Source of the DNA: a virus
Reading direction: 5' to 3' (one strand)
DNA length: 32,738 nt
IMG/VR virus record: IMGVR_UViG_3300033141_003935
Coordinates: 1-32,738 of that record
The position numbers and the translations under genes are program-made. Positions within the stretch are counted from its first letter, which is position 1. Every line of letters begins with the position of its first letter. Positions 2 to 21,682 of the stretch are shown here, in pieces. The notes below the pieces were generated by a model. It saw only the letters and a program-made list of their open reading frames with translations. It was not told the origin of the DNA and ran no database searches.

Positions 2-394
2 TTAAAAGATTTGAAAAGTTTAGAAGATAGGGTTTGTGAAGAAGGTTTAGAATATTTCAAAACGAATTTTCCGAAGGGTGCAAAGGTTATAGATGTAATT
101 AGGAGATTGGAAGATGTAAAAAATCCAACAGGTTGGATCGGTTGGCTTTGTGATGTTTTTAAACTTACTTACGAAGCTAAAAAATGGTACAAGAACGGAC
201 AACTTAGATCTAATTGCAATTGCAAAGATGGGCAAAAGCATGGGCTTTGTCAGGGGCGGTACGAAAACGGAGACCTTGAATTTAGTTATAATTATAAAGA
301 TGATCAAAGGCACGGGCTTTGTCAGGAGTGGCATTCGAACGGGCAACTTTGGTCAAGTCGCAATTATAAAGATGGTGCATTAATAGAGGTCTAA
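2..394 (+). CDS. MORN_2-repeat protein, 5' end outside window (partial)
   Basis: The gene is open to the left edge; comparison with its neighbours shows that only about the first 10 codons are missing. The visible 130 residues hold the rest of the family N-terminal domain (CEEGLEYFKTNF, then VIDVIRRLE and WIGWLCDVFKLTYEAK). Three MORN_2-type repeats of 24 residues follow (WYKNGQLRS..., RYENGDLEF..., WHSNGQLWS...), the last one cut short at YKDGALIEV. MORN_2 repeats are typical of YwqK-like proteins; the biochemical role is unknown. It heads a tandem series of paralogues and is followed after 4 bp by a broken copy. The first internal in-frame initiation codon (TTG at 11) lies inside the conserved domain and is not a credible start. 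Confidence 0.8.
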   Translation, partial: LKDLKSLEDRVCEEGLEYFKTNFPKGAKVIDVIRRLEDVKNPTGWIGWLCDVFKLTYEAKKWYKNGQLRSNCNCKDGQKHGLCQGRYENGDLEFSYNYKDDQRHGLCQEWHSNGQLWSSRNYKDGALIEV

Positions 395-398
395 ACGC

Positions 399-936
399 AT
401 GGATAATTTAGAAAAGTTTATTACATTAAAAGATTTGAAAAGTTTAGAAGATAGGGTTTGTGAAGAAGGTTTAGAATATTTCAAAACGAATTGTAATTAG
501 GAGATTGGAAGACGTAAAAACTACAACATGTTGGATTGGTTGGCTTTGTATTGCTTTCAAACTTACTTACGAAGCTAAACGTTGGTACGAAAACGGGCAA
601 TTTCGATCTATTCGCAATTGCAAAGATGGTCAAAAGCACGGACTTTGTAAAGAATGGTACGAAAACGGACAACTTCGATCTAATTGCAATTGCAAAGATG
701 GTCGAAGACACGGACTTTGTCAAGATTGGTACGAGAGCGGGAAGCTTTGGTCAAGTTTTAATTACAAAGATGGTAAAGAGCATGGGCTTTGTCAAGATTG
801 GCATGAGAACGAGCAACTTTGGTCAAATTGTAATTACAAAGATGGTAAGCTACACGGACTTTCTCAAGATTGGAACGAGAGCGGGCAGATTTTATCTGAC
901 GATACCTATAAAGATGGTCATTTAATAAAGGGCTAA
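399..936 (+). pseudogene. Broken MORN_2-repeat paralogue (26-bp deletion, frameshift)
   Basis: Starts with ATG at 399 right after the previous stop, with MDNLEKFITLKDL as in the paralogues, but terminates at TAG 498-500 after 33 codons. Aligning the DNA with the preceding gene shows that 26 bp were lost after AAAACGAATT (near 492), removing the PKGAKVID part of the N-domain and shifting frame. The original frame resumes at about 501 and runs to the stop at 934-936, encoding the rest of the N-domain (EDVKTTTCWIGWLC) and five MORN_2 repeats. A TTG at 505 could restart translation of a 143-residue repeat-only product, but no good ribosome site precedes it. The repeats show no further stops, so the break is probably recent. 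Confidence 0.8.
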
Positions 937-938
937 TT

Positions 939-1427
939 ATGAGTAATTTAGAAAAATTTATAACATTAAAAGATTTGGAAGATTTGGAAGCTTGCGAGAA
1001 AGGCTTAAATTATTTCAAAACGAACTTTTCGAATGGCGCAAAGGTTATAGATGTAATTAAGAAATTAGAAGGTTCAAAAACTACAACAAGTTGGGTTTTT
1101 TGGCTTTGCAAAGCTTTCAAGCTTACTTATGAAGTCAAACGTTGGTACGAAAACGAGCAACTTTGGTCAAATTGTAATTACAAAGATGGTAAACTACACG
1201 GACTTTGTCAAGATTGGCACAAAAACGGACAATCTCTAACAAGTTATAATTACAAAGATGGTAAGGAGCATGGGCTTTGTCGATGGTGGTATTCAGATGG
1301 GCAACTTAGATTTAGTTATAATTACAAAGACGGTCAATGGCATGGGCTTTGTCGAGAATGGCACGAAAACGGACAACTTCAAACTAGTTACAATTATAAA
1401 GATGGTGAATTAATAATAGAGGATTAA
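939..1427 (+). CDS. MORN_2-repeat protein with family N-terminal domain
   Basis: 162 residues. Residues 1-65 are the family N-domain: MSNLEKFITLKDL, an acidic spacer, C-x3-GLNYFKTNF, NGAKVIDVIKKLE, then a tryptophan-rich segment ending in FKLTYE. Four 24-residue MORN_2 repeats follow, from WYENEQLWS to the truncated last unit ending YKDGELIIED. No signal peptide or membrane segment is visible, so a cytoplasmic location is likely. The start lies 2 bp after the previous stop, with an AAAGGG ribosome site inside the end of the previous gene, implying translational coupling along the array. The second repeat is unusual (QSLTSY). Function unknown; the repeat type matches YwqK-like proteins, often labelled antitoxin components without firm proof. 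Confidence 0.85.
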   Translation: MSNLEKFITLKDLEDLEACEKGLNYFKTNFSNGAKVIDVIKKLEGSKTTTSWVFWLCKAFKLTYEVKRWYENEQLWSNCNYKDGKLHGLCQDWHKNGQSLTSYNYKDGKEHGLCRWWYSDGQLRFSYNYKDGQWHGLCREWHENGQLQTSYNYKDGELIIED

Positions 1428-1429
1428 TT

Positions 1430-1651
1430 ATGAAAATTGTTAATATACGAAGTAAATTATGTAAACTAGAGCAATCTTTAAGTAGTGTTATTTTATATCA
1501 CGAAAACAACCATACGACATTTTTTAAAAATAATCAGAAGCTAGAAATGTTTAAGCAGGTTAGATTTGCTATTCGGCAAGCTATTCAGACAATTGATGAT
1601 TACGAATTTGAATCATTAAATAAAGGGGCTGATTATGAAATTAATATTTAA
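1430..1651 (+). CDS. Small hypothetical protein
   Basis: 73 residues, starting 2 bp after the preceding MORN_2 gene, with AGAGGA as ribosome site. The sequence (MKIVNIRSKLCKLEQSL...) looks helical, with no membrane segment and no motif I recognise. The stop overlaps the start of the next reading frame (ATG at 1635). It belongs to a three-gene insert, with the next ORF and a VRR-NUC nuclease gene, that interrupts the MORN_2 gene series. The clean ribosome site and spacing support it as real; a function cannot be assigned. Confidence 0.6.
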   Translation: MKIVNIRSKLCKLEQSLSSVILYHENNHTTFFKNNQKLEMFKQVRFAIRQAIQTIDDYEFESLNKGADYEINI

Positions 1652-1964
1652 TGTTAAGATTTTTATACAACTTCTTTTGATGGCTTTTTTTATTGGATCA
1701 ATCTCATTTATTTTAAAATATTGTAGTTGCGGTCAACTTGAGATGAAATCTTTAATACTTATTAAAAATGATTTTCGAATAATTAAAGATAGATTGGAGA
1801 AGTTGTTATTTATGCCTCAAAAGGGCATATGCGTTGTCAATTATAATTTTTTAATATATCTTCATAAGCATCATATATATAATTTTTTAAGGGTAGCTTA
1901 CTATGAAGATTGTTATCAGAGAACGCATCGTAAAACAAAAGATAGCGAAGTTGCTGAGGTGTAA
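1635..1964 (+). CDS. Putative small membrane protein (uncertain)
   Basis: 109-residue frame starting at ATG 1635, preceded by AAAGGGG, with a 17-bp overlap with the upstream gene. Residues 7-28 (FIQLLLMAFFIGSISFILKY) form one clear hydrophobic segment, suggesting an N-terminally anchored inner-membrane protein with a basic, helical tail. Its 3' end overlaps the VRR-NUC gene by 62 bp, more than its neighbours show, so the last ~20 residues may be fortuitous. No homologue recognised. It could be a small phage membrane protein of the kind often found between early genes. Confidence 0.45.
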   Translation: MKLIFNVKIFIQLLLMAFFIGSISFILKYCSCGQLEMKSLILIKNDFRIIKDRLEKLLFMPQKGICVVNYNFLIYLHKHHIYNFLRVAYYEDCYQRTHRKTKDSEVAEV

Positions 1965-2193
1965 CGGTGTATTTTATTTTATGCCGCAATCCGGCATTTA
2001 TGGAAAGGCGGGCATTGCAGATTTTGTTTGCTGTGTTGATGGTCGTTTTCTCGCTATAGAAGCTAAAGGAAGTAATGGGAAACAGACAGAACTGCAAAAA
2101 CAAAATGAATTAGCTGTGAAAAAAGCGAATGGAACTTATTTATTAATCGATGATAAAAATATATCGCAGCTAGAAAAGTTTATTGTTGGTTAA
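1903..2193 (+). CDS. VRR-NUC domain nuclease
   Basis: 96 residues covering a complete stand-alone VRR-NUC domain, a PD-(D/E)XK-type nuclease fold common in phages and linked to structure-specific cleavage (Holliday junction or flap processing). Visible family features: GKAGIADFVCCVDGRF with the catalytic Asp (the usual G-x-P-D appears as GIAD), FLAIEAKG with the catalytic E-x-K, then TELQKQNELAVKKANG with the Gln-containing helix and Gly. The start at 1903 has AAGGG 9 bp upstream. Placement amid replication genes fits processing of replication or recombination intermediates. It overlaps the preceding small membrane ORF, and the next MORN_2 gene follows after 13 bp. Confidence 0.85.
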   Translation: MKIVIRERIVKQKIAKLLRCNGVFYFMPQSGIYGKAGIADFVCCVDGRFLAIEAKGSNGKQTELQKQNELAVKKANGTYLLIDDKNISQLEKFIVG

Positions 2194-2206
2194 TATAGGA
2201 CTAATT

Positions 2207-2749
2207 ATGAGTAATTTAGAAAAGTTTATAACATCTAAAGATTTGAAAGCGTGCAAAGAAGGTTTAGATTATTTTAAAACGAACTTTCCGAATGGTGTGA
2301 AGGTTATAGATGTGATTAAGAAATTGGAAGACGTAAAAAATTCAACAGGTTGGATTTTTTGGTTATGCAAAGCATTTAAACTAGATTATATAGCTAAAAA
2401 TTGGTACGAGAGCGGACAACTTCGAACAAATTGCAATTTCAAAGATGGTCAATGGCACGGACTTTGTCAGGGATGGTTTAAAAGCGGAAAGCTTTGGTCA
2501 AGTTATAATTACAAAGATGGTCAATGGCACGGACTTTGTCAGGGATGGTTTGAAAGCGGAAAGCTTTGGTCAAGTCATAATTACAAAGATGGTCAATGGC
2601 ATGGGCTTTGTCGAGAATGGCACGAAAACGGGCAGCTTAAATCTAGTTATTTTTACAAAGAGGATCAAAAGCACGGACTTTGTCGAGAATGGTCTGAAAG
2701 CGGAAAGCTTCGATGTAGTGATGTTTTTAAAGACGATACGTTAAAATAG
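2207..2749 (+). CDS. MORN_2-repeat protein with family N-terminal domain
   Basis: 180 residues from ATG 2207, chosen over an in-frame TTG at 2183 because MSNLEKFIT is the shared family start and AGGA sits just upstream. The N-domain (KACKEGLDYFKTNF, NGVKVIDVIKKLE, WIFWLCKAFKLD) is followed by five 24-residue repeats. Repeats two and three (WFKSGKLWSS, WFESGKLWSS) are almost identical at the DNA level, a recent 72-bp duplication. Several units carry E-S-G-K-L in place of E-N-G-Q-L. The last repeat ends with DVFKDDTLK. Cytoplasmic, function unknown; the next paralogue starts 8 bp after its stop. Confidence 0.85.
   Translation: MSNLEKFITSKDLKACKEGLDYFKTNFPNGVKVIDVIKKLEDVKNSTGWIFWLCKAFKLDYIAKNWYESGQLRTNCNFKDGQWHGLCQGWFKSGKLWSSYNYKDGQWHGLCQGWFESGKLWSSHNYKDGQWHGLCREWHENGQLKSSYFYKEDQKHGLCREWSESGKLRCSDVFKDDTLK
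2474..2617 (+). repeat. Tandem 72-bp repeat unit duplication
   Basis: Two neighbouring 72-bp units (2474-2545 and 2546-2617) inside a MORN_2 gene share nearly all bases, including synonymous positions, differing by A/G in the third codon, a C/T in the tyrosine/histidine codon and changes near the end. The match extends upstream through GGTCAATGGCACGGACTTTG. This indicates recent slippage or unequal recombination rather than protein-level convergence. Confidence 0.8.
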
Positions 2750-2757
2750 GACTAAGC

Positions 2758-3309
2758 ATGAGTAATTTAGAAAAGTTTATAACATCTAAAGATTTGGAAA
2801 GATTAAAAGCTTGCAAAAAAGGCTTAAATTATTTCAAAACGAACTTTTCGAATGGCGCGAAGGTTATAGATGTGATTAAGAAATTGGAAGATATAAAAAC
2901 TACAACAAGTTGGATTGATTGGCTTTGCGATGTTTTTAAACTTACTTATAGGGCTAAAGAATGGTATCCAAACGGACAACTCGCGTCAAGTTATAACTAC
3001 AAAGATGGTCTATATCATGGGCTTTGTCTGAATTGGTATCCAAACGGACAGCTTTGGTCCAGCGATGTTTGTAAAAATGGTCGAAGGCACGGACTTTGTT
3101 TGGATTGGTACTCAACAGGACAACTCCAAACTAGTTACAATTGTAAAGACGGTCGAAGACACGGACTTTGTTTGGATTGGTACTCAACAGGACAACTCCA
3201 AACTAGTTATAATTACAAAGATGGTAAAGAGCATGGGCTTTGTGAAACCTGGCATTCAAACGGGCAGCTTTGGTCCAGCGATATTTATAAAGATGGTAAA
3301 TTAATGTAG
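2758..3309 (+). CDS. MORN_2-repeat protein with family N-terminal domain
   Basis: 183 residues. The N-domain runs to about residue 66 (MSNLEKFITSKDLERLKACKK..., YFKTNF, VIDVIKKLE, WIDWLCDVFKLTYRAK). Five repeats follow: two of the WYPNGQL type, two of the WYSTGQLQTS type that are DNA-level duplicates, and a last WHSNGQLWSSDIYKDGKLM unit. AGGACTAAGC precedes the ATG. The WYPNGQL and WYSTGQL units are specific to this member, so the paralogues differ mostly in the residues around the turn of each repeat. No membrane segment. Role unknown; same translationally coupled series as its neighbours. Confidence 0.85.
   Translation: MSNLEKFITSKDLERLKACKKGLNYFKTNFSNGAKVIDVIKKLEDIKTTTSWIDWLCDVFKLTYRAKEWYPNGQLASSYNYKDGLYHGLCLNWYPNGQLWSSDVCKNGRRHGLCLDWYSTGQLQTSYNCKDGRRHGLCLDWYSTGQLQTSYNYKDGKEHGLCETWHSNGQLWSSDIYKDGKLM
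3106..3249 (+). repeat. Tandem 72-bp repeat unit duplication
   Basis: The units 3106-3177 and 3178-3249 are a recent direct duplication inside the MORN_2 gene. The first ~45 bp (TGGTACTCAACAGGACAACT and beyond) are identical, and the preceding CGAAG[G/A]CACGGACTTTG is also shared. Differences are concentrated towards the end of the second unit. Confidence 0.8.
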
Positions 3310-3317
3310 GGCTAATT

Positions 3318-3815
3318 ATGAGTAATTTAGAGAAGTTTATTACATTAAAAGATTTAGAAAATGAAGCTTGTGAAGAAGGGTTAAACTATTTTAAAACGAA
3401 CTTTTCGAATGGCGCGAAGGTTATAGATGTAATTAAGAAATTAGAAGACTCGAAAACTACAGCATGTTGGATTTTTTGGCTTTGTGTTGCTTTCAAGCTT
3501 ACTTACGAAGCTAAAAAATGGTATAAGAAACGTTGGTACAAGAACGAGCAGCTTCTAGCAAATCACAGTTACAAAGATGGTAAGCCGCACGGACTTTGTC
3601 AGGGATGGTATAAGAACGGACAGCTTCAATATAGTTTTAATTATAAAGATGGTAAGGAGCATGGGCTTTGTCAGATTTGGTACGAAAACGGGCAACTTCA
3701 ATCAAGTTATCATTACAAAGATGGTAATGCATATGGAATTTGCTTATTTTGGCACGAAAACGGGCAGCTTTGGTCAGGTTGTGATTACAAAGATGGTTGT
3801 ATTTCCACACAATGA
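3318..3815 (+). CDS. MORN_2-repeat protein with family N-terminal domain
   Basis: 165 residues with the family N-domain (MSNLEKFITLKDLENEACE..., GLNYFKTNF, VIDVIKKLE, WIFWLCVAFKLTYEAK) and four MORN_2 repeats. The junction between domain and first repeat carries a small duplication, K-K-W-Y-K-K-R-W-Y-K, not seen in the other members. The last repeat ends in DYKDGCISTQ rather than the usual acidic tail. The stop TGA (3813-3815) overlaps the ATG of the helicase gene as ATGA, so helicase translation is probably coupled to this gene. Function unknown. Confidence 0.85.
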   Translation: MSNLEKFITLKDLENEACEEGLNYFKTNFSNGAKVIDVIKKLEDSKTTACWIFWLCVAFKLTYEAKKWYKKRWYKNEQLLANHSYKDGKPHGLCQGWYKNGQLQYSFNYKDGKEHGLCQIWYENGQLQSSYHYKDGNAYGICLFWHENGQLWSGCDYKDGCISTQ

Positions 3816-5356
3816 TATATAGAGATAAATATTTAATTTTAGATGGTAAGTTCCCTTTTGGAATTAATAAAGTTATTAAGCATAAGGAAGTTACGATCTT
3901 GCCATGGACTTATGAAAATTATATTTTTTGCCTAAATAATAATATTAAAAATTTACCGTCTCCGATGGAGACTTTTAATTGGTACTTGTCGCCACTAAAA
4001 CCATACGATCATCAGAAAATAACATCAAATTTTTTAGTTTTGAATGAACGGGCTTTTTGTTGGAATGAGGCGGGAACCGGTAAAAGCGCATCTTGTGTTT
4101 GGGCGTATTGCTATCTTATTAAAAACCATCCTTCCATAATACTAAATCCTCGAATGATGATCGTATGCCCTTTATCTACTGTAAAATCAGTGTGGAGCAA
4201 AGAGATTTTTATGATTGCTCCTTATCTACATGTTGCTGAGATATTAGGTAGTCGAGATAGGAAAATTAAATTATTAAAAAAAGATCCTCAGGTTATAATT
4301 GTAAATCACGATGGTATTAAATCATTAAATAGCGAACTAAAAAAATGGAATCCTGCCATCATAATCATTGATGAGAGCACTGCTTTTAAAAATGCAAGGA
4401 CAGATCGATGGCGAGCTTTGAGAAATCTTGTGAAAGATACTGCATATTTATGGTTATTAAGTGGTACGCCTGCACCTCAAGCGCCTACTGATTTGTACGC
4501 TCAGGCAAGACTTGTATGTCCTGAAAAAGTTGGTAGAAGTTTTTTACGTTTTCGTGATTTGGTTATGCGCCAAGCTTCTCAGTATTCCTGGGTAGCCAAA
4601 CCAGACTGGCAAAACATCATTAAAGACGTTATCCAACCTGTTATTAGGTTTTCGCGGGAAGATTGCATTGATTTGCCTGCAGTTGTTGAGCAAAATTACG
4701 AAGTTAGTTTAAGCCTTTTGCAGAAGCAAACTTTTGCAACATTGCGTAAAAGGGCTGTAGTACTAACTCAGGAAGGTACTATAACAGCTGTTAATGAAGG
4801 CGTGATGCGTAACAAGTTATTACAATGTTGCGCTGGGTATGTCTACCTTATTGATGATACAACTGGAGAACGTATAACTAAGGATCTAAATCCTGATAAT
4901 CGCATAAGAGCGTTGCTTGATTTGGTTAACGAGACTGATCGCGGAGTGTTAGTGTTTGCTCCATTTCTAAATGCTATAAAATTTATTTCTAAGCATTTCA
5001 ATGCTAATAAAATTTTATACGATGTTATAACCGGCGAAGTTTCTGTTAAAAAAAGATCTATTATATTTAATAAATTTCAAAAAGGAGAGATTAAAGTTTT
5101 AATCGCGCATCCTAAGACAATGGCTCATGGTGTTACGCTTACTTATGCGGATACTGTAATATGGTATCTGGTAACAAGTGATAATGAGCTTTACGAACAA
5201 GCTAACAGTCGCATACAACGCATTGGGCAATATCATAAAATGCGTATTATACAATTACTCAGTACAAATTTAGAGCAAAACGTTCTAAAAAGATTAAAAC
5301 AAAAGCAAACAATGCAAGGTGTTTTGCTTGAAACGTTGGGGCAAAATAAATTGTAA
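3812..5356 (+). CDS. SNF2-like DEAD/DEAH-box helicase
   Basis: 514 residues, a superfamily 2 ATPase/helicase close in style to the compact SNF2-like enzymes of phages. Visible motifs: Walker A W-N-E-A-G-T-G-K-S near residues 84-92, motif II I-I-D-E-S near 187 (DES instead of DEAH), motif III-like L-S-G-T-P-A-P near 215, and motif VI Q-R-I-G-Q near 469, typical of SNF2 proteins. It lacks the long insertions of chromatin remodellers. Likely role: DNA translocation or strand remodelling in phage replication or recombination. ATG 3812 was chosen because of the ATGA overlap with the MORN_2 gene upstream; a TTG at 3797 is the alternative. A promoter follows its stop. Confidence 0.88.
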   Translation: MIYRDKYLILDGKFPFGINKVIKHKEVTILPWTYENYIFCLNNNIKNLPSPMETFNWYLSPLKPYDHQKITSNFLVLNERAFCWNEAGTGKSASCVWAYCYLIKNHPSIILNPRMMIVCPLSTVKSVWSKEIFMIAPYLHVAEILGSRDRKIKLLKKDPQVIIVNHDGIKSLNSELKKWNPAIIIIDESTAFKNARTDRWRALRNLVKDTAYLWLLSGTPAPQAPTDLYAQARLVCPEKVGRSFLRFRDLVMRQASQYSWVAKPDWQNIIKDVIQPVIRFSREDCIDLPAVVEQNYEVSLSLLQKQTFATLRKRAVVLTQEGTITAVNEGVMRNKLLQCCAGYVYLIDDTTGERITKDLNPDNRIRALLDLVNETDRGVLVFAPFLNAIKFISKHFNANKILYDVITGEVSVKKRSIIFNKFQKGEIKVLIAHPKTMAHGVTLTYADTVIWYLVTSDNELYEQANSRIQRIGQYHKMRIIQLLSTNLEQNVLKRLKQKQTMQGVLLETLGQNKL

Positions 5357-5363
5357 AGATAAC

Positions 5364-5391
5364 TTGACTTTATAATTTAAATTTGTATACT
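5364..5391 (+). promoter_or_regulatory. Sigma70-type promoter
   Basis: TTGACT (5364-5369), a 16-bp spacer and TATACT (5386-5391) lie in the gap between the helicase gene and the fused MORN_2 gene at 5424. The 15-mer AACTTGACTTTATAA (5361-5375) recurs exactly at 13862-13876 in another inter-operon gap, which supports a regulatory role. Confidence 0.65.
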
Positions 5392-5423
5392 AGCCCTATT
5401 GATAATTAAAAAGTAGGTGTTTT

Positions 5424-6827
5424 ATGCCAGTATTGACAGTAGGTAATTTATTGAACGAAGACGAAGTAAGCATGTGTCCATTTTGTAATCAGACGTGTTT
5501 TTATGAAATAGAGTATAACTCTGATTCGTCTACTTTCTTAACTAATACAGCTTGTTTCAGAGCAGGTTGTCGATGTCGTGATGGCTTTATAGTTTCAAAA
5601 ATTGCTACTAATAACTTTGATAGTCTCAGTTCGGAATGGCGTGTGTTTCAAATGATGGGGTTATTAAGTCTTTATGTCCAGTCTGCTAAATTTTGGATAA
5701 GAGAACGGAGACTGGAGGCTAAAGATGGTGAATTAGAAGACAGTAAGGATGATCCTTTAGAAAAGTTTGTAACGTTAGAAGATTTGAAAATATTAGGAAC
5801 TCGCGAGGCAGTCTTAAACTATTTCAAAATGAACTTTACGGTTGGCACGAAGGTTATAGATGTAATTAGGAAATTGGAAGCTGTAAAAATTACAGTAGGT
5901 TGGATTGATTGGCTTTGTGTTGTTTTCAAACTTACTTACGAAGCTAAAGAATGGTACGGAAACGGGCAATTTAAATCTAGTTACAATTATAAAAACGGTC
6001 TAAAACACGGACTTTGTCGATGGTGGTACGAAAACGGACAACTTTGGTCAAGTTATAATTACAAAGATGGTAAGGAACATGGGCTTTGTCAAAGTTGGAA
6101 TTCAGATGAGCAACTTCAATCTAGTTTTAATTACAAAGATGGTGAATTAATAGAAGACCCTAGCGATGATCCTTTGCATAAATTTATAACATTACAAGAT
6201 TTAGAAAATTTAGGAGCTTGTGGAGCAGTCTTAAACTATTTTAAAACAAACTTTCTAAATGGTGCGCAGATTATAGATGTAATTAAGGGATTAGAAGATG
6301 TAAAAACTACAACAGATTGGATTGATTGGCTTTGTGATACTTTCAAACTTACTTACGAAGCTAGACGTTGGTATGAAAACGGGCAACTTAGGTCGAGTTA
6401 CAATTACAAAGATGGTAAAAGGCACGGACTTTTTCAACGTTGGTCTTCAGATGGGCGATTTCGATTTAGTTGTAATTATAGCGATGGTCCTTTAGAAAAA
6501 TTTATAACATTAAAAGATTTGGAAAGATTAGGAGCTTGCAAAGAAGTCTTAGAATATTTCAAAACGAACTTTCTAAATGGTGCACAGATTATAGATGTAA
6601 TTAAGGGATTAGAAGATATAAAAACTACAACATGTTGGATTGATTGGCTTTGTGAAGCTTTCAAGCTTACTTATAAAGCTAGATGTTGGCACAAAAACGG
6701 GCAGCTTAGGTCAAGTTATAATTACAAAGATGGTCAATGGTATGGACTTTGTAAAGAATGGCACGAAAACGGACAACTTCGAAATAGTTACACTTATGAT
6801 GATGGTGGATTAATAGTAAAGGGCTAA
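5424..6827 (+). CDS. Zinc-ribbon protein fused to three N-domain/MORN_2 modules
   Basis: 467 residues. Residues 1-60 contain C-P-F-C...C...G-C-R-C, a zinc-ribbon arrangement resembling small phage proteins of the Lar (restriction alleviation) type; this resemblance is weak. After a linker, three complete family modules follow in one frame: N-domain starting LEKFVTLEDL plus three repeats, N-domain LHKFITLQDL plus two repeats, and N-domain LEKFITLKDL plus two repeats. The last two modules join directly (NYSDGPLEKF), as if intergenic starts and stops had been lost between former separate genes. ATG 5424 follows GTAGGTG, and a TTGACT-16-TATACT promoter lies just upstream. The role is unknown; the fusion suggests that several N-domain/MORN_2 modules can act in one chain. 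Confidence 0.8.
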   Translation: MPVLTVGNLLNEDEVSMCPFCNQTCFYEIEYNSDSSTFLTNTACFRAGCRCRDGFIVSKIATNNFDSLSSEWRVFQMMGLLSLYVQSAKFWIRERRLEAKDGELEDSKDDPLEKFVTLEDLKILGTREAVLNYFKMNFTVGTKVIDVIRKLEAVKITVGWIDWLCVVFKLTYEAKEWYGNGQFKSSYNYKNGLKHGLCRWWYENGQLWSSYNYKDGKEHGLCQSWNSDEQLQSSFNYKDGELIEDPSDDPLHKFITLQDLENLGACGAVLNYFKTNFLNGAQIIDVIKGLEDVKTTTDWIDWLCDTFKLTYEARRWYENGQLRSSYNYKDGKRHGLFQRWSSDGRFRFSCNYSDGPLEKFITLKDLERLGACKEVLEYFKTNFLNGAQIIDVIKGLEDIKTTTCWIDWLCEAFKLTYKARCWHKNGQLRSSYNYKDGQWYGLCKEWHENGQLRNSYTYDDGGLIVKG

Positions 6828-6829
6828 TT

Positions 6830-7552
6830 ATGAGTAATTTAGAGAAGTTTATTACATTAAAAGATTTGAAAGATTTGGAAGATTTGAAAGTTTGTGAAGA
6901 GGGTTTAGAATATTTCAAAACGAACTTTTCGAATGGTGCACAGATTATAGATGTAATTAAGAGATTGGAAGACATAAAAACTACAACATGTTGGATTGAT
7001 TGGCTTTGTATAGTTTTCAAACTTACTTATGAAACTAAACGTTGGTACGAAAACGGACAATTTCGATCTATTTGCAATTGCAAAGATGGTCAAAAGCACG
7101 GACTTTGTCGATGGTGGTATGAAAACGGGCAGCCCCAATCAAAATACAATTACAAAGATGGTAAAGAGCATGAACTTTGTTGGCATTGGTATGAGAACGG
7201 ACAGCCCCAATCAAAATACAATTACAAAGATGGTAAAGAGCATGAACTTTGTTGGCATTGGTATGAGAACGGACAGCTTGAATGTAGTTATAACTACAAC
7301 TTTGGTCTATACCATGGGCTTTGTCAGATTTGGTACGAAAACGGGCAACTTAAATCTAGTTATAATTATAATTATAATTATAAAGATGGTAAAGAGCATG
7401 GACTTTGTAAAATGTGGTACGAAAACGGGCAACTTAAATCTAGTTATAATTACAAAAAGGGTCAAAGACATGGGCTTTGTCAGATTTGGGACGAAAACAG
7501 GCAGCTTAGATCTAGTGATAATTATAAAGATGGTCATTTAATAGATTGTTGA
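6830..7552 (+). CDS. MORN_2-repeat protein, longest repeat tract
   Basis: 240 residues: the N-domain (MSNLEKFITLKDLKDLEDLK, GLEYFKTNF, IIDVIKRLED, WIDWLC) and seven MORN_2 repeats, the largest number in a single-domain member. Repeats two and three are a 72-bp DNA duplication (WYENGQPQSKY...). Repeat five contains an expanded Y-N-Y-N-Y-N-Y stretch caused by a short TATAAT tandem repeat, lengthening it by four residues. The final unit is D-E-N-R-Q-L-R-S and ends in DGHLIDC. It starts 2 bp after the fused gene's stop, with AAAGGG upstream. It is followed by the DNA polymerase gene. Function unknown. Confidence 0.85.
   Translation: MSNLEKFITLKDLKDLEDLKVCEEGLEYFKTNFSNGAQIIDVIKRLEDIKTTTCWIDWLCIVFKLTYETKRWYENGQFRSICNCKDGQKHGLCRWWYENGQPQSKYNYKDGKEHELCWHWYENGQPQSKYNYKDGKEHELCWHWYENGQLECSYNYNFGLYHGLCQIWYENGQLKSSYNYNYNYKDGKEHGLCKMWYENGQLKSSYNYKKGQRHGLCQIWDENRQLRSSDNYKDGHLIDC
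7115..7258 (+). repeat. Tandem 72-bp repeat unit duplication
   Basis: Units 7115-7186 and 7187-7258 are identical except for two A/G changes in the GAAAACGGGCAG versus GAGAACGGACAG part. This is the cleanest sign of recent unit copying in the MORN_2 family in this window. Confidence 0.9.
7361..7384 (+). repeat. Short TATAAT tandem repeat in coding sequence
   Basis: About four copies of the hexamer TATAAT (the last ends TATAAA), encoding alternating Tyr-Asn within one MORN_2 repeat. The tract adds 12 bp to the normal 72-bp unit, so the frame is kept. It is a plausible slippage site. Confidence 0.75.
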
Positions 7553-7581: not shown

Positions 7582-9483
7582 ATGAAATTGATAGCATTAG
7601 ATATAGAAACATGGGGTTTGAAAGAAGGTTATACATTACAGCCTTGGCAATGCGCTTCTAATGAGGCTGGTATACTAAGTGTTGCTATCGCAAATAAAGG
7701 GGGCAACATGCTTGTTTCAGATTGCGACTCAACGCTCAATTTTATTGAAAGTTTTAATTCTATAACTGATTGTAAATGCGAAAACCCTGTAATTTGCGGA
7801 TGGAACTTGAAATTCGATTTAGCATTTTTGCTTACTTGCGGGCATAACTACTTTAAAAACTATATATATCTTGATGGAATGCTTTTGCTGAAAAGATTAG
7901 AACAAGATTTAGAGTCGTATTCTTTGAAAAATACGCTAAAAAGATATTCAAAACACATTCCTAATTATGTTGATGGTTATCACGCAGATATTGAGTTTAA
8001 AGTAGGCAAACCTTCTGAAGTTTATACGCAAGAAGAATTACTCAAAATGCACAAATATAATATAAAAGACGCTGAATATACGTATTTTTTGGTTAGGCAT
8101 TTGGTTGCAAAAGCTACACCTCAATGTTTAGCACAAGCAATTCGTGAGAGTACTTTATGTGTATACTTTGCTGAATCTTGGACTAATGGGCTTCATTTAG
8201 ATGATTCGGCAATTGCTAATTTTGAAAAAAGCATTGTTGCAAAATTAAATAAGTTCGATAAACTTTTTACAACTATAGGTTTGACTAAAAAAATAATAAA
8301 CTCTACAAAGCAATTGCCCATTTTTTTAACAGAGAAACTAAACATTACTTTATCTGATTTGACAGAGAAAGGAGCTTTAGCTGTCAATCAAACTGTTTTA
8401 AAGAAAATACTCTATCAAAGTTCCGGTATCCCACAAAAAATTATAAAATCGATTTTAATGTACAAAAGCTTGGAAACGGAGTTGACTAAATTTATTGCTT
8501 CCGCCAAAAGTTGTTATGTAAATTATCGTAAAGCACATTCTGATCCTATGCTGAATAGTACATATACAGGACGTATTACATATTCGATCCACCAATCTAT
8601 AAAAAAAGAAAAAACATATAAAAACGGTTCTATTAAAATTACTAATAAAAAAATAACAATAGGTTTGCCAATACATCAAATGAAACGTGGTAAAATTAGG
8701 AATATATTAATTGCGCCACCAGGTCATGATCTTTTAGAATTAGATTTCTGCGCTCAAGAGATGAGGCTAATGGCTTGCATTGCAAGCGAGTCTACTATGA
8801 TAAAGTTATTTAACGAAAATAAAGATTTGCATTCTTACACTGCTGCTGAAATTGTAGGCATTACATACAAAGAATTTAAAGCGTTGGCACAGAGTGATCC
8901 AGATGCATATAAGAGGTCAAGATTTATTGGAAAGTTAACTAATCTATCATTGCAGTATAGACTAAGCGCTAAAAATTTGTACAGGCAGTGGCACATAGTT
9001 TATGGCATAACAGACAAGACAGAGAGTGACGCTATTATCGCAAAAAATACTTATTTAAAAATCTATAGCGGCATCGGCAGATATTGGAATTCTATTATAG
9101 AATTTGCTAAAAGAACGGGTTATGTTAATAACCTAGCGGAAAGAAAGCGCTATATAAGCGAATGGGGTTATGAACATTCATGGAAGTCGGAGCAAACTGC
9201 TATTAACTTTCCTATCCAATCCGCAGGAGCTGAGCAAAAGGTACTGGCTTTATTTTCGTTGCGTAAATTTATTGATAAGAACAATGTTAAATTCGCATGG
9301 GATTTGCATGATGGCTTGTATTTTTATGTTCCGATTGCTAATCAACAGGAGGTTGTACATGACATGGTTACTATTATGAGTAATCTAGATTACAAAAAAG
9401 CTTGGTTTTGGGAGCCACAATTAAAATTTCCTGTTGAAGCTAAGATAGGCAAAAACTGGGGCGAATTAAAAATTGTAAAATAA
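7582..9483 (+). CDS. DNA polymerase, family A (phage type) with 3'-5' exonuclease
   Basis: 633 residues, the size of phage family-A replicative polymerases (T7-like size class). The N-terminal proofreading domain begins L-D-I-E-T-W with catalytic D7 and E9, followed by WNLKFDLAFL (Exo II). Polymerase motif A is L-E-L-D-F-C-A-Q-E-M-R with D388; motif B is R-S-R-F-I-G-K-L-T-N with the dNTP-binding lysine at 451, although the usual N-F-G-x-x-Y-G reads N-L-S-L-Q-Y-R; motif C is D-L-H-D-G-L with H576-D577. No 5' nuclease domain. It should be the main phage replicase, working with the primase-helicase at 11151. No strong ribosome site precedes ATG 7582. Confidence 0.93.
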   Translation: MKLIALDIETWGLKEGYTLQPWQCASNEAGILSVAIANKGGNMLVSDCDSTLNFIESFNSITDCKCENPVICGWNLKFDLAFLLTCGHNYFKNYIYLDGMLLLKRLEQDLESYSLKNTLKRYSKHIPNYVDGYHADIEFKVGKPSEVYTQEELLKMHKYNIKDAEYTYFLVRHLVAKATPQCLAQAIRESTLCVYFAESWTNGLHLDDSAIANFEKSIVAKLNKFDKLFTTIGLTKKIINSTKQLPIFLTEKLNITLSDLTEKGALAVNQTVLKKILYQSSGIPQKIIKSILMYKSLETELTKFIASAKSCYVNYRKAHSDPMLNSTYTGRITYSIHQSIKKEKTYKNGSIKITNKKITIGLPIHQMKRGKIRNILIAPPGHDLLELDFCAQEMRLMACIASESTMIKLFNENKDLHSYTAAEIVGITYKEFKALAQSDPDAYKRSRFIGKLTNLSLQYRLSAKNLYRQWHIVYGITDKTESDAIIAKNTYLKIYSGIGRYWNSIIEFAKRTGYVNNLAERKRYISEWGYEHSWKSEQTAINFPIQSAGAEQKVLALFSLRKFIDKNNVKFAWDLHDGLYFYVPIANQQEVVHDMVTIMSNLDYKKAWFWEPQLKFPVEAKIGKNWGELKIVK

Positions 9484-9913: not shown

Positions 9914-10777
9914 ATGAATCTAAATGATATGAAGCAACTACCGTCCTATTTTTCCGAGACGGATCTGTCTGAGAATAAAAAATTAATCACCACATCAGCG
10001 GGATTGGCTATGATTAAAATCTCAGGCAAAACTTTTGAACTTTCCAAAGGAGATGATAAAACATCTTTAGGGACATCTATAACAGGAGTTATCGTTGGAA
10101 TCGGAAGTATTTCTAAAAAATATTATAGCAGCAAGTATAATCCAAAAGTAGAGGCTATGTCTCCTGACTGTGCTTCTGCAAATGGTAAAACACCTGACAA
10201 AGCAATCGAGAAGCCAATCTGTTCTGCGTGTACTAAGTGTTCTTTCAATGTTTTCGGAAGCGAAATATCCGGTTTCGGGAATAAAACTAAAAAATGTAAA
10301 GATGTGCAAAGGTTAGTTATTTATTTCCCGACTTTAAAGGTTGCAGAAAAGTTATATAGACTAGACGTTCCTGCAGCATCCCTTAAACCATTATCTGTCT
10401 ATGGGAATATGCTTAGTAATAAAGGCATTCCTGTTTGTGGGGTATTTACAACTATCAGTTTTGATACTGTTGAAAAATTCATAAAATTAAAATTTGATTG
10501 TCAACAAGTTTTAAATGAAGAAACTTATAATGCAATAAAAAAAGTTAAACAGAATTTTGAAATTGATAGATTACTAACTATGGAAGTTGCCGCGTTCACA
10601 GAAGATTCCGATGTTGCTGAAGATTCCGATGTTGCTGAAGATTCCGATGTTGCTGTTAAAGAAGAATCTAAAAAGGAAGTTAAAATCGAAAGCAGTCAAT
10701 CAACTTCAGGTCAACAGTTGGAAATCCCCGACAACTTCGAAAGTGAAGTTGACGCTATTATAGACAATATAGAATAG
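9914..10777 (+). CDS. Phage ssDNA-binding-like protein with acidic tail
   Basis: 287 residues. The core matches a phage family with a cysteine cluster (ICSACTKCSFNVFGS ... KKCKDVQRLVIYF) followed by LDVPAASLKPLSVYGNML and VFTTISFD, found next to replicative polymerases and usually considered ssDNA-binding. The last ~80 residues are strongly acidic and low in complexity, including three exact E-D-S-D-V-A repeats, and end D-A-I-I-D-N-I-E. An acidic C-terminal tail is the usual partner-docking element of SSB proteins. AAGAGGT lies upstream of ATG 9914. Binding is inferred from family and tail, not shown directly. Confidence 0.7.
   Translation: MNLNDMKQLPSYFSETDLSENKKLITTSAGLAMIKISGKTFELSKGDDKTSLGTSITGVIVGIGSISKKYYSSKYNPKVEAMSPDCASANGKTPDKAIEKPICSACTKCSFNVFGSEISGFGNKTKKCKDVQRLVIYFPTLKVAEKLYRLDVPAASLKPLSVYGNMLSNKGIPVCGVFTTISFDTVEKFIKLKFDCQQVLNEETYNAIKKVKQNFEIDRLLTMEVAAFTEDSDVAEDSDVAEDSDVAVKEESKKEVKIESSQSTSGQQLEIPDNFESEVDAIIDNIE
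10601..10654 (+). repeat. Three exact 18-bp tandem repeats
   Basis: GAAGATTCCGATGTTGCT occurs three times without a mismatch (10601-10618, 10619-10636, 10637-10654), encoding E-D-S-D-V-A in the acidic tail of the ssDNA-binding-like protein. Copy number is likely to vary between isolates. Confidence 0.95.
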
Positions 10778-14644: not shown

Positions 14645-15328
14645 ATGATTATGTATCCAAAAATAGACACACTTTTTAAAAGAGGTTGTAAAGGCAAACT
14701 AATTTTGGGAGAATGGGCTTGTCCTGAGTTTGAATATCTGGCTAATAATAAGTGGTTGGCAACAGAAAAGATAGATGGGACGAATATTAGAGTTTACTGG
14801 TCACATATTAAAAAAACATTTGAGATAGGCGGAAGAACTGATAACGCTCAAATACCAACTTTCCTTTTTAAGAAATTGACAGGGATATTTACGAAAGATA
14901 AATTTATAAAATTGTTTCCTTCGACAGATATCTGTTTATACGGCGAGGGTTTTGGAAATAAAATTCAGAAAGTAGGTAGCCAATATATTAAAAACGATGT
15001 GGATTTTATTTTATTTGATGCTTTGGTTGGTAAATGGTGGCTTAAAAGAGAAGATGTTAGGAATATAGCTTGTAGTTTAGATTTGAAACTTGTTCCTGAA
15101 TATTCTTTATTAACTTTATACGAAGCTATAAATTTAATAAAGAAAGGCATTAAATCTACTTGTACTGAATTATCCATCGCAAATAACTTACTTACTGAGG
15201 GGCTAGTCTTGAAACCGAAGGTGGAATTGAAAGACAGAGCTGGTAATAGAATTATCACTAAAATAAAACATAAAGATTTCAATAATATAAATGATGAGGA
15301 GTTTGACTTTTGGGTAAGTTCAAAGTAA
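14645..15328 (+). CDS. RNA ligase (Rnl2-like nucleotidyltransferase)
   Basis: 227 residues with the motifs of the ATP-dependent RNA ligase family: motif I E-K-I-D-G-T-N with the nucleotide-accepting lysine at K42, a central L-Y-G-E-G-F (motif III region), V-D-F-I-L-F-D-A, motif IV L-T-E-G-L-V-L-K-P, and motif V I-T-K-I-K-H-K-D-F. It is short, lacking a large C-terminal domain. Such phage ligases seal nicked RNA, for example tRNA cut by host defence nucleases; whether that applies here is inference. The start has TAGGTAA upstream. It follows two small membrane genes; no polynucleotide kinase lies beside it. Confidence 0.88.
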   Translation: MIMYPKIDTLFKRGCKGKLILGEWACPEFEYLANNKWLATEKIDGTNIRVYWSHIKKTFEIGGRTDNAQIPTFLFKKLTGIFTKDKFIKLFPSTDICLYGEGFGNKIQKVGSQYIKNDVDFILFDALVGKWWLKREDVRNIACSLDLKLVPEYSLLTLYEAINLIKKGIKSTCTELSIANNLLTEGLVLKPKVELKDRAGNRIITKIKHKDFNNINDEEFDFWVSSK

Positions 15329-16986: not shown

Positions 16987-17412
16987 ATGAAGAATTACTT
17001 GGAAGATGACGGCGTTCAAGTATGGTGGTATGACAATGGGCAAATAAAAGAAATAAAAACATCAGGCAATAAGGCGAAAGGTTTTTGGCAACGTTGGCAT
17101 GAAAACGGGCAGACAGATATTATTTTCAGAGGCGATACTTATATAAGATATTATGACACAGGTCAAATAGCAAATAAGGGCAACTATACTAAATACAGTG
17201 ATAGAACTGGTAAGTGGGAAGCTTTTTTCGAGGATGGAAGTGTAAAATCAATCTCACACTTTAAAGACGGAAAGTTACACGGATATCGTGAAGTTCGTAA
17301 CGCCGCTGGTGATATAACCTACAAAGGAAGTTATAAAAATGGATATGAAGATAGTGTTGATGGAAGGGGTGCAAAAGTAATTATAGAAACTCTTACGGGA
17401 GTGTATGGCTAA
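16987..17412 (+). CDS. Lone MORN_2-type (YwqK-like) protein
   Basis: 141 residues made almost wholly of divergent MORN_2 repeats: VWWYDNGQIKEI, RWHENGQTDIIF, RYYDTGQIANKG, AFFEDGSVKSIS followed by HFKDGKLHGYREV. It lacks the N-domain of the 0-7.5 kb family and its repeats are far less uniform, so it is a separate lineage rather than a recent copy. AGAGGTG precedes the ATG. It sits between copies 1 and 2 of the 26-28-bp direct repeat, as a one-gene cassette. Related proteins are often annotated as YwqK antitoxins; no partner toxin is visible beside it. Confidence 0.75.
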   Translation: MKNYLEDDGVQVWWYDNGQIKEIKTSGNKAKGFWQRWHENGQTDIIFRGDTYIRYYDTGQIANKGNYTKYSDRTGKWEAFFEDGSVKSISHFKDGKLHGYREVRNAAGDITYKGSYKNGYEDSVDGRGAKVIIETLTGVYG

Positions 17413-18779: not shown

Positions 18780-19010
18780 ATGACTGATGATACAAATGAT
18801 ACAAATTACTGTTGTAGGCGCTTTCAAACTGATGAAACAAATTACTGTTTTTGGCGACTTCAAAAGGATACACATTGTAAAAACGCAACGTACGAGACGG
18901 ATTGTGGGTCAAGATATACATTTTCAAGTGGACGTATTAAAGACCATTACTACCATACGTTTTGCCCCTACTGTGGCAGAGAATATAAAGAAGTGAAGGA
19001 TGAGCAATAG
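18780..19010 (+). CDS. Small zinc-ribbon-like phage protein
   Basis: 76 residues from ATG 18780; a GTG at 18771 is too close to the AAGAGGAG site. The C-terminal half matches a common small phage pattern: HCKNATYETDCGSRYTF ... F-C-P-Y-C-G-R-E-Y, with the terminal C-x2-C and the upstream Cys residues likely binding zinc. The N-terminal part has two near-copies of T-N-Y-C-x-x-R-x-Q from a 36-bp imperfect duplication (18801-18828 and 18837-18864). It is the only plus-strand gene among minus-strand lysis genes. Its end abuts the holin gene tail to tail. Role unknown. Confidence 0.65.
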   Translation: MTDDTNDTNYCCRRFQTDETNYCFWRLQKDTHCKNATYETDCGSRYTFSSGRIKDHYYHTFCPYCGREYKEVKDEQ

Positions 19011-21085: not shown

Positions 21086-21682
21086 TTAAATATTTATTTT
21101 ATAAGAAACTGAAAAACCATATAAATCCAAACTCGGCTGTTGCTTTTTATAAATTATATCTACCGGATTTTTAGAGCCGCCGTTGTAGTGTGACCATGAA
21201 ACGCCGGCAGTTAAGTTTTTAGAGATTTTATAGTCTAGCCCCGCACCGTAGGTAATATTTATTTTATCTTTATTAAATTTCTCACCATCCAAAGGCTGAA
21301 AATAAGTGACCCCACCGCGAGCATATGCAATGAAGCTTTCATCGAGAGGAATGTTCACGCGGAGGGTCAAATCGGCTATCTGCTGTTTGATTTTAAAATT
21401 TTTAATCACTTTATCGTTGATTGCGAATTTTAAATCACGTTTATCAGTAATCAAATACCCCGTTTCTACAGCAAAATGTTTTGTAAAATTATATCCAACA
21501 AAAGCACGTCCTGCAAAATTGGTTGTATGCTCTTTGAATAAGTTATTATTAAGACCGTCATAAACGAAACCGCCTGTTGCGCCTACGTAAACAGACTTGT
21601 TTGAATTGGTTTTTGGCGATACGCCATTGGCAAATACATTGCAACTAACTACTAGTAATGCCGCTAAAAATATTTTTTTCAT
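21086..21682 (-). CDS. Outer-membrane beta-barrel protein (OmpA/Lom-like moron)
   Basis: 198 residues. An N-terminal signal peptide (MKKIFLAALLVVS...VFA, cleavage probably after residue 19) precedes an 8-strand-type barrel: VYVGATGGFVYDGL, AGRAFVGYNFTKHFAVETGY, ADLTLRVNIPLDESFIAYAR, GGVTYFQPL, TYGAGLDYKISKNLTAGVSW and a final Y-G-F-S-V-S-Y-K-I-N-I. Alternating hydrophobic strands and the YNFTKHFAVETGY pattern are typical of OmpA-like barrels. The V-V-S-C within the signal could be a lipobox, but a barrel favours ordinary processing. In phages such genes (for example Lom of lambda) alter the lysogen's surface. GGTAAG precedes the ATG. Confidence 0.85.
   Translation of the reverse strand: MKKIFLAALLVVSCNVFANGVSPKTNSNKSVYVGATGGFVYDGLNNNLFKEHTTNFAGRAFVGYNFTKHFAVETGYLITDKRDLKFAINDKVIKNFKIKQQIADLTLRVNIPLDESFIAYARGGVTYFQPLDGEKFNKDKINITYGAGLDYKISKNLTAGVSWSHYNGGSKNPVDIIYKKQQPSLDLYGFSVSYKINI

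Follow-up and report, generated by a model that had tools for sequence, protein, structure and literature searches.

The left end of IMG/VR virus record IMGVR_UViG_3300033141_003935, a linear contig whose full 32,738 nucleotides we refer to as the window, is from a phage and holds an array of paralogous genes in which a constant N-terminal domain (the N-domain, or head) is joined to a body of MORN_2 repeats. Ten N-domains are found within eight genes at positions 2-7552, and these share the locus with a VRR-NUC-type nuclease, an SNF2 helicase, and a family A DNA polymerase (PolA). We propose that the array encodes reshuffled binding proteins of one family, which may counteract bacterial defences, because the same head-plus-repeats design is seen again, also in tandem, in L057, a distant phage contig. 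An initial annotation made from the DNA letters had already described tandem duplication with differing repeat numbers and a constant domain that carries variable repeats, and both descriptions hold.

The proteins follow one plan, namely an N-domain of ~65 residues followed by MORN_2 repeats of 24 residues. By pattern extraction, 29 full 24-residue units were obtained, next to one 28-residue unit and truncated last units. Every array protein tested exceeds the gathering score of MORN_2 (PF07661; 43.9-87.4 bits vs 29.6), with Pfam E-values of 1e-11 to 1e-26, far past chance. The gene count given earlier (six intact or partial genes, one broken copy, and one triple fusion) is matched by our inventory, where five single genes are intact (starting at 939, 2207, 2758, 3318, and 6830), one is cut, one is frameshifted, and one is the triple fusion. 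In the frameshifted copy (c1; copies are numbered as in Table 1), 26 nt present in c0 are missing after ~492, at the end of a 68-nt stretch identical to c0; its frame ends in YFKTNCN and a stop codon, and the rest reads on at 505-936. The start of the triple fusion (5424-5747) is Cys-rich and zinc ribbon-like, perhaps a captured phage gene, and matches zf-LITAF-like and Lar restriction alleviation families weakly, under all cut-offs.

Adjacent copies are 2-8 nt apart and all lie on the + strand, and unique genes intervene as well. The tail of the preceding gene contains the ribosome site (AAAGGGCTAATTATG and variants) for the copy that follows, its AGGG falling within the final codons of that preceding gene, as had been read from the sequence earlier. 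With the site placed there, a head-to-tail duplicate would come with its own ribosome site. The neighbours of the array are the nuclease, the helicase, the polymerase, and two small open reading frames (ORFs) without family match, and its left side ends at the contig end; no toxin family is present among the genes interrupting it, where the two small ORFs fit no family. On inspection, the N-termini of the array proteins (e.g., MSNLEKFITLKDLERLKACKKG) carry charges and do not resemble signal sequences, and neither a signal peptide nor a membrane segment is evident there.

For c4 (2758-3309, 183 residues), the AlphaFold2 model (m99de65b30851) reaches a mean predicted local distance difference test (pLDDT) score of 93.6 and consists of four helices (residues 10-15, 20-29, 36-45, and 51-59), followed by a continuous beta-meander. 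Many of the best PDB matches of this ribbon are eukaryotic MORN proteins such as Morn1, MORN4, junctophilin, and radial-spoke chains; the MORN4/Myo3a structure 6jle aligns with the model over 117 residues (Z 11.0, root-mean-square deviation 4.5), and other MORN chains reach Z 9-11. The viral structure matches (BFVD) comprise MORN proteins of uncultured phages and many from giant viruses. The head is modeled well only within the full-length protein. Folded alone it gave a poor model (pLDDT 68) with no usable fold match, and no fold class is claimed for it; the N-domain profile likewise gave nothing significant against PDB sequences.

Stretches shared without mismatch are up to 76 nt long within one gene and 68 nt long between the first two copies; further exact repeats measure 50 nt, 48 nt (spanning a gene start, at 3308 and 6820), and 41 nt (in units from different genes). 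The leaders are near-identical, as noted before, the 48-nt stretch being an example, and the window's heads share 58-82% identity with the first of them. Nearest neighbours change between the leader, the N-domain halves, and the repeats: the c3 leader is nearest to that of c4, whereas for the first repeat of c3 the nearest first repeat is in c0 and the nearest unit overall in c1. Such a mosaic would be expected from repeated unequal exchange or conversion. The earlier wording of an actively duplicating family has its basis in these exact repeats and mosaic identities, all from one contig.

The pooled ratio of nonsynonymous to synonymous change (pN/pS) is 0.46 for the N-domains and 0.43 for the repeats. 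At ~0.45 overall, the reading frames are kept as proteins and the family is mainly under purifying selection. Repeat variability is highest at positions 8, 18, and 24, then at 3, 17, 23, and 11, and these variable positions surround a constant HGLC and W core. No repeat position has a clear excess of pN over pS, and positive selection is not demonstrated. The variable repeat surfaces of the initial annotation are thus narrowed to a few freely variable positions (8, 18, and 24 above all) in a family that is mainly conserved.

Relatives of the head are few. A profile built from the window heads led to L016, a further viral contig, which ends inside an N-domain (10177). A degenerate pattern of the most conserved head residues gave 31 loci, most of them chance or wrong-frame hits, and only L030 was kept; as it was picked by pattern, its own score is somewhat inflated. 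L030 and a protein of Methanosarcina virus MetMV (AZF89938.1) then led to L057, the distant phage contig, in which two tandem N-domain and MORN_2 genes with five and three repeats adjoin terminase genes and small ORFs, with no polymerase beside them. The window and L057 heads are linked by hhalign with a probability of 97% (E 3e-11) and score 34.7 and 31.1 bits, with a best shuffle of 11.6 and none of 5000 shuffles as high. The L057 heads in turn score 25.3 and 22.1 bits against L030 and MetMV (0 of 5000 shuffles as high for each). Directly compared, the window and L030/MetMV give an hhalign probability of 90% (E 1.6e-6). MetMV alone is weak against the window profile (4.5 bits, 41 of 5000 shuffles as high), and its link to the window thus rests on L057 and L030. 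No fixed single-copy orthologue was seen in related phages, L057 with its two tandem copies of different repeat number being the only intact relative. A PADLOC match of L057 to a type I specificity subunit (E 0.08) was taken as chance.

L030 belongs to PHROG 38757 (E 8e-25), and the MetMV protein is joined to this group by its similarity to L030. In the loci L030 (50-724, - strand) and L054 (2977-3648), the head is followed by an Imm5-like region and then by long Ala-rich repeats, and the MetMV protein has near-exact internal repeats. Annotated matches to the L030/MetMV body from Streptomyces and Haladaptatus (plasmids) are named "putative immunity protein". The head is probably, to judge from these alignments, a reusable phage module bearing different repetitive bodies. 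With either a MORN_2 or an Imm5-like body attached, it combines with two bodies from families that carry immunity or antitoxin labels.

Other searches for the head were less productive. Exact-peptide scans of viral contigs gave nothing with a single sequence and L016 only with an alignment, and scans of species genome contigs gave nothing; the patterns were narrow, which makes this weak evidence of absence, and one such scan missed even the contig of L057 itself, so that absence in these scans is not evidence. With few relatives and narrow patterns, prevalence cannot be estimated. PolA used as bait found no related phages, and in named phage records only the MORN body was matched, the N-domain alone giving nothing significant in phages or plasmids.

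Arrays of MORN_2 genes are found in the replication or early blocks of two more phages. The third phage, L019, carries three MORN_2 genes along with a fragment at the start of the contig; a VRR-NUC-type nuclease and further replication-type genes follow downstream. Two of the MORN_2 genes, tandem at 690-1367 and 1931-2668, share a constant head (MCMCEFVSWIEDK...) that differs from the N-domain; homology between the two heads was rejected on testing, and the L019 head alone has no PHROG match. Per-position repeat variability in L019 correlates with that in the window (Spearman 0.80, p 2e-6), and largely the same positions vary. In the Helicobacter equorum prophage BK070118.1 (L022), three tandem MORN_2 genes are located between an integrase and DnaG. 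Here (3404-6111), the largest MORN_2 protein has ~400 residues and two genes end in the tail SLNVGVSNVGN.

Several of these contigs begin or end within an array. The window starts in an exact internal repeat of 68 nt (1-68 = 425-492) and L019 in one of 121 nt (1-121 = 2359-2479); together with the end of L016, this is the pattern that breakage of short-read assemblies at such arrays would give. In marine viral data, MORN repeats were reported to occur 37 times more often in long reads than in assemblies (PMC9238414). Combined with the contig ends, this makes it probable that the class is under-counted, and its members could be recovered from long-read viromes.

How does the array compare with known systems? 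In the literature searched, no phage system of this head-plus-repeat form was found, and in that sense the earlier claim that none has been described stands. As worded it was too strong, as three groups share parts of the anatomy. Bacterial polyimmunity loci, which belong to polymorphic toxin systems, consist of paralogues arranged in tandem on one strand with very small gaps; their number varies, no toxin gene lies between them, and several domains may be fused in one protein (PMC3482391). The homogeneous ones among them (SUKH, Imm6, Imm11, and Imm36) resemble the array in their tandem paralogues, tiny gaps, and multi-copy fusion protein, whereas the array is situated among phage replication genes, has unique genes between its copies, and carries a MORN_2 body in place of the immunity superfamilies listed there. 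The Fusobacterium MORN2 expansion (PMC12940168) likewise has many paralogues, with 1-27 MORN_2 repeats, but these are bacterial proteins, mostly with signal sequences and often near autotransporters, and the array head is not described there. The MORN families of giant viruses (Orpheovirus, Pithovirus, and Hyperionvirus; BFVD) are viral, have many paralogues, and form a beta-ribbon; their viruses infect eukaryotes, however, and the matches extend mostly over the ribbon, with no head homology seen.

Closer to the individual proteins, MORN_2/YwqK-type proteins (PF07661) share a body above the Pfam cut-off and a predicted MORN fold, whereas the array adds a four-helix head, is present in many copies, and has no adjacent toxin that we could find. 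The PHROG 38757 proteins have the homologous N-terminal head and a repetitive body but differ in that this body is Imm5-like with Ala-rich repeats and was seen at one place per record, where the array carries MORN_2. The H. equorum prophage has a comparable arrangement of tandem genes in its integrase-DnaG block yet lacks the N-domain and uses another repeat sequence.

Phages are known to amplify anti-defence loci segmentally under pressure (PMC13096335). This, together with the polyimmunity-like anatomy, leads us to the reading we favour, at somewhat below even odds, that the array provides the phage with several binding proteins that act in the cytosol on variable proteins, which are perhaps toxin-type defences of the host. 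Each protein would present a constant four-helix head and a MORN_2 beta-ribbon varying in length and at a few positions per repeat. Unequal recombination between 72-nt units and between whole genes would yield new copies, and with the ribosome site of the next copy held in the 3' end of most genes, duplicates could stay translated from one message. The array would then behave as homogeneous polyimmunity loci do, the triple fusion taking the part of a polyimmunity protein, and several of its paralogues would bind, and so block, several variants of some protein that they encounter inside the cell; a defence effector of the host, toxin-type or other, is the most plausible target. We infer that the genes are expressed early, that copies arise by the recombination described, that the products bind proteins, what they target, and that they counter defence, and the same holds for the binding of a host or rival-phage target already suggested by the initial annotation. 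If this reading is right, phages have a counterpart of bacterial polyimmunity loci, made by repeat recombination and not by gene capture. The shared head, for its part, is a handle for finding further members in phages of bacteria and archaea.

Critically speaking, a number of points weigh against this proposal. No toxin partner, known anti-defence family, or target was found for the array, and PADLOC, whose library covers defence and not anti-defence, had no match for three array proteins of the window. The antitoxin label of MORN_2/YwqK proteins is mostly annotation-based, and the Imm5/Imm5_like matches of the L030/MetMV body are weak and below curated Pfam cut-offs. As no position has pN clearly above pS, the variable positions could mean relaxed constraint and not selection for new binding. 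Finally, the nuclease and helicase interrupt the array, unlike in a pure polyimmunity locus, and MORN is not mentioned in the accessible portions of the polyimmunity paper (PMC3482391). We do not class the array as a polyimmunity locus because its membership in an immunity superfamily is not established, unique genes intervene, and the search for a toxin gave none.

Chief among the rivals is a dosage or host-takeover role, to which we give a fairly low chance, in which all copies bind one conserved host or phage factor (e.g., a replication protein) and copy number sets the dose. The position between nuclease, helicase, and polymerase genes, the pooled purifying selection, and the identity among the window heads all fit such a role. 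It accounts less readily for bodies that differ in repeat number and at specific positions, for the triple fusion, and for the distant L057, which keeps the architecture near terminase genes and small ORFs without a polymerase beside it. A largely non-adaptive birth and death of copies is improbable in our view. Here, 72-nt units and near-identical leaders would promote unequal crossing over, and copies would persist or decay while their diversity brought no special benefit. The already broken copy at 399-936, the exact intragenic duplications, and the lack of any position with pN clearly above pS agree with it, whereas five single copies and the triple fusion are still open at a pN/pS of ~0.45, tandem copies recur in L057, and other MORN_2 arrays occupy the early blocks of unrelated phages.

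Superinfection exclusion, by proteins that bind variable rival proteins and stop related phages from establishing, is quite improbable. Variable repeated binders would suit rival-phage targets and the phage also has an OmpA-like barrel gene, but a block at surface entry is unlikely for proteins with no evident N-terminal signal peptide or membrane segment, and no lysogeny gene was identified in the window. Very improbable is an assembly artefact, i.e., a collapsed or chimeric region and not a true array. The contig does start in the 68-nt exact repeat of 425-492, at whose end c1 has its 26-nt deletion; most copies are nevertheless far too divergent for this (N-domains as little as 58% and at most 82% identical to the first) and alternate with unique genes, and L057 and L019 have independent tandem copies, which confines the doubt to the c0/c1 junction.

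A more far-reaching version of the cytosolic-binder proposal is speculative and rather unlikely. The conserved head would be a chassis for exchangeable bodies (a MORN_2 ribbon in this phage, Imm5-like helical repeats in others), exchange of in-frame 72-nt units inside one gene or among several would yield new binding surfaces and polyvalent fusions against host defence toxins that keep changing, and the arrays would be largely hidden from short-read catalogues as they break assemblies.

Table 1. Features of the array and its surroundings in the window.
Feature	Position	Strand	Basis or remark
c0: N-domain + MORN_2, 5' end removed by contig end	2..394	+	ORF listing, Pfam
c1: broken copy, frameshift	399..936	+	distal frame open 505-936 with several MORN_2 units
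c2: N-domain + MORN_2, intact	939..1427	+
Small ORF without family match, between copies	1430..1651	+
VRR-NUC-type endonuclease	1903..2193	+	PHROG 93, E 1.5e-9
c3: N-domain + MORN_2, intact	2207..2749	+
c4: N-domain + MORN_2, intact	2758..3309	+	structure predicted
c5: N-domain + MORN_2, intact	3318..3815	+
SNF2-type helicase	3812..5356	+	E 1e-19; its ATG overlaps c5 stop
Promoter-like site TTGACT, 16 nt, TATACT; precedes triple fusion	5364..5391	+	consensus match only
c6-c8: Cys-rich segment + three fused N-domain/MORN_2 modules	5424..6827	+	heads ~5748, 6165, 6486
c9: N-domain + MORN_2, intact, longest ribbon	6830..7552	+	about seven repeats
Family A DNA polymerase (PolA), right after array	7582..9483	+	E 5e-49
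Lone MORN_2 gene without N-domain, distant from array	16987..17412	+	E 5e-15

The interleaved nuclease and helicase and the directly following polymerase had been named from the sequence, and the matches in Table 1 support these names. The endonuclease received no VRR-NUC call from Pfam, and PolA starts 29 nt past the last array copy. The site upstream of the triple fusion is promoter-like by consensus only, and such matches are no commoner than in shuffles. Overall, the contig is divided into a + strand half for replication and a - strand half for the tail and baseplate, the latter including a baseplate wedge match (E 1e-31).

The - strand half also encodes an OmpA-like outer-membrane beta-barrel with an apparent signal peptide (21086-21682), which could change the host surface; used as a host clue, this outer-membrane protein has gammaproteobacterial matches that are weak only. 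Close to the junction of the two halves, on the - strand side, a 36-nt repeat occurs twice (18796-18864), at a place with no listed ORF of at least 80 amino acids. An RNA ligase gene is present at 14645-15328 (Pfam E 1.5e-14); phage RNA ligases are often tied to the repair of tRNA cleaved by defence. Near the C-terminus of the gene at 9914-10777, an 18-nt unit (EDSDVA) is repeated perfectly three times (10601-10655).

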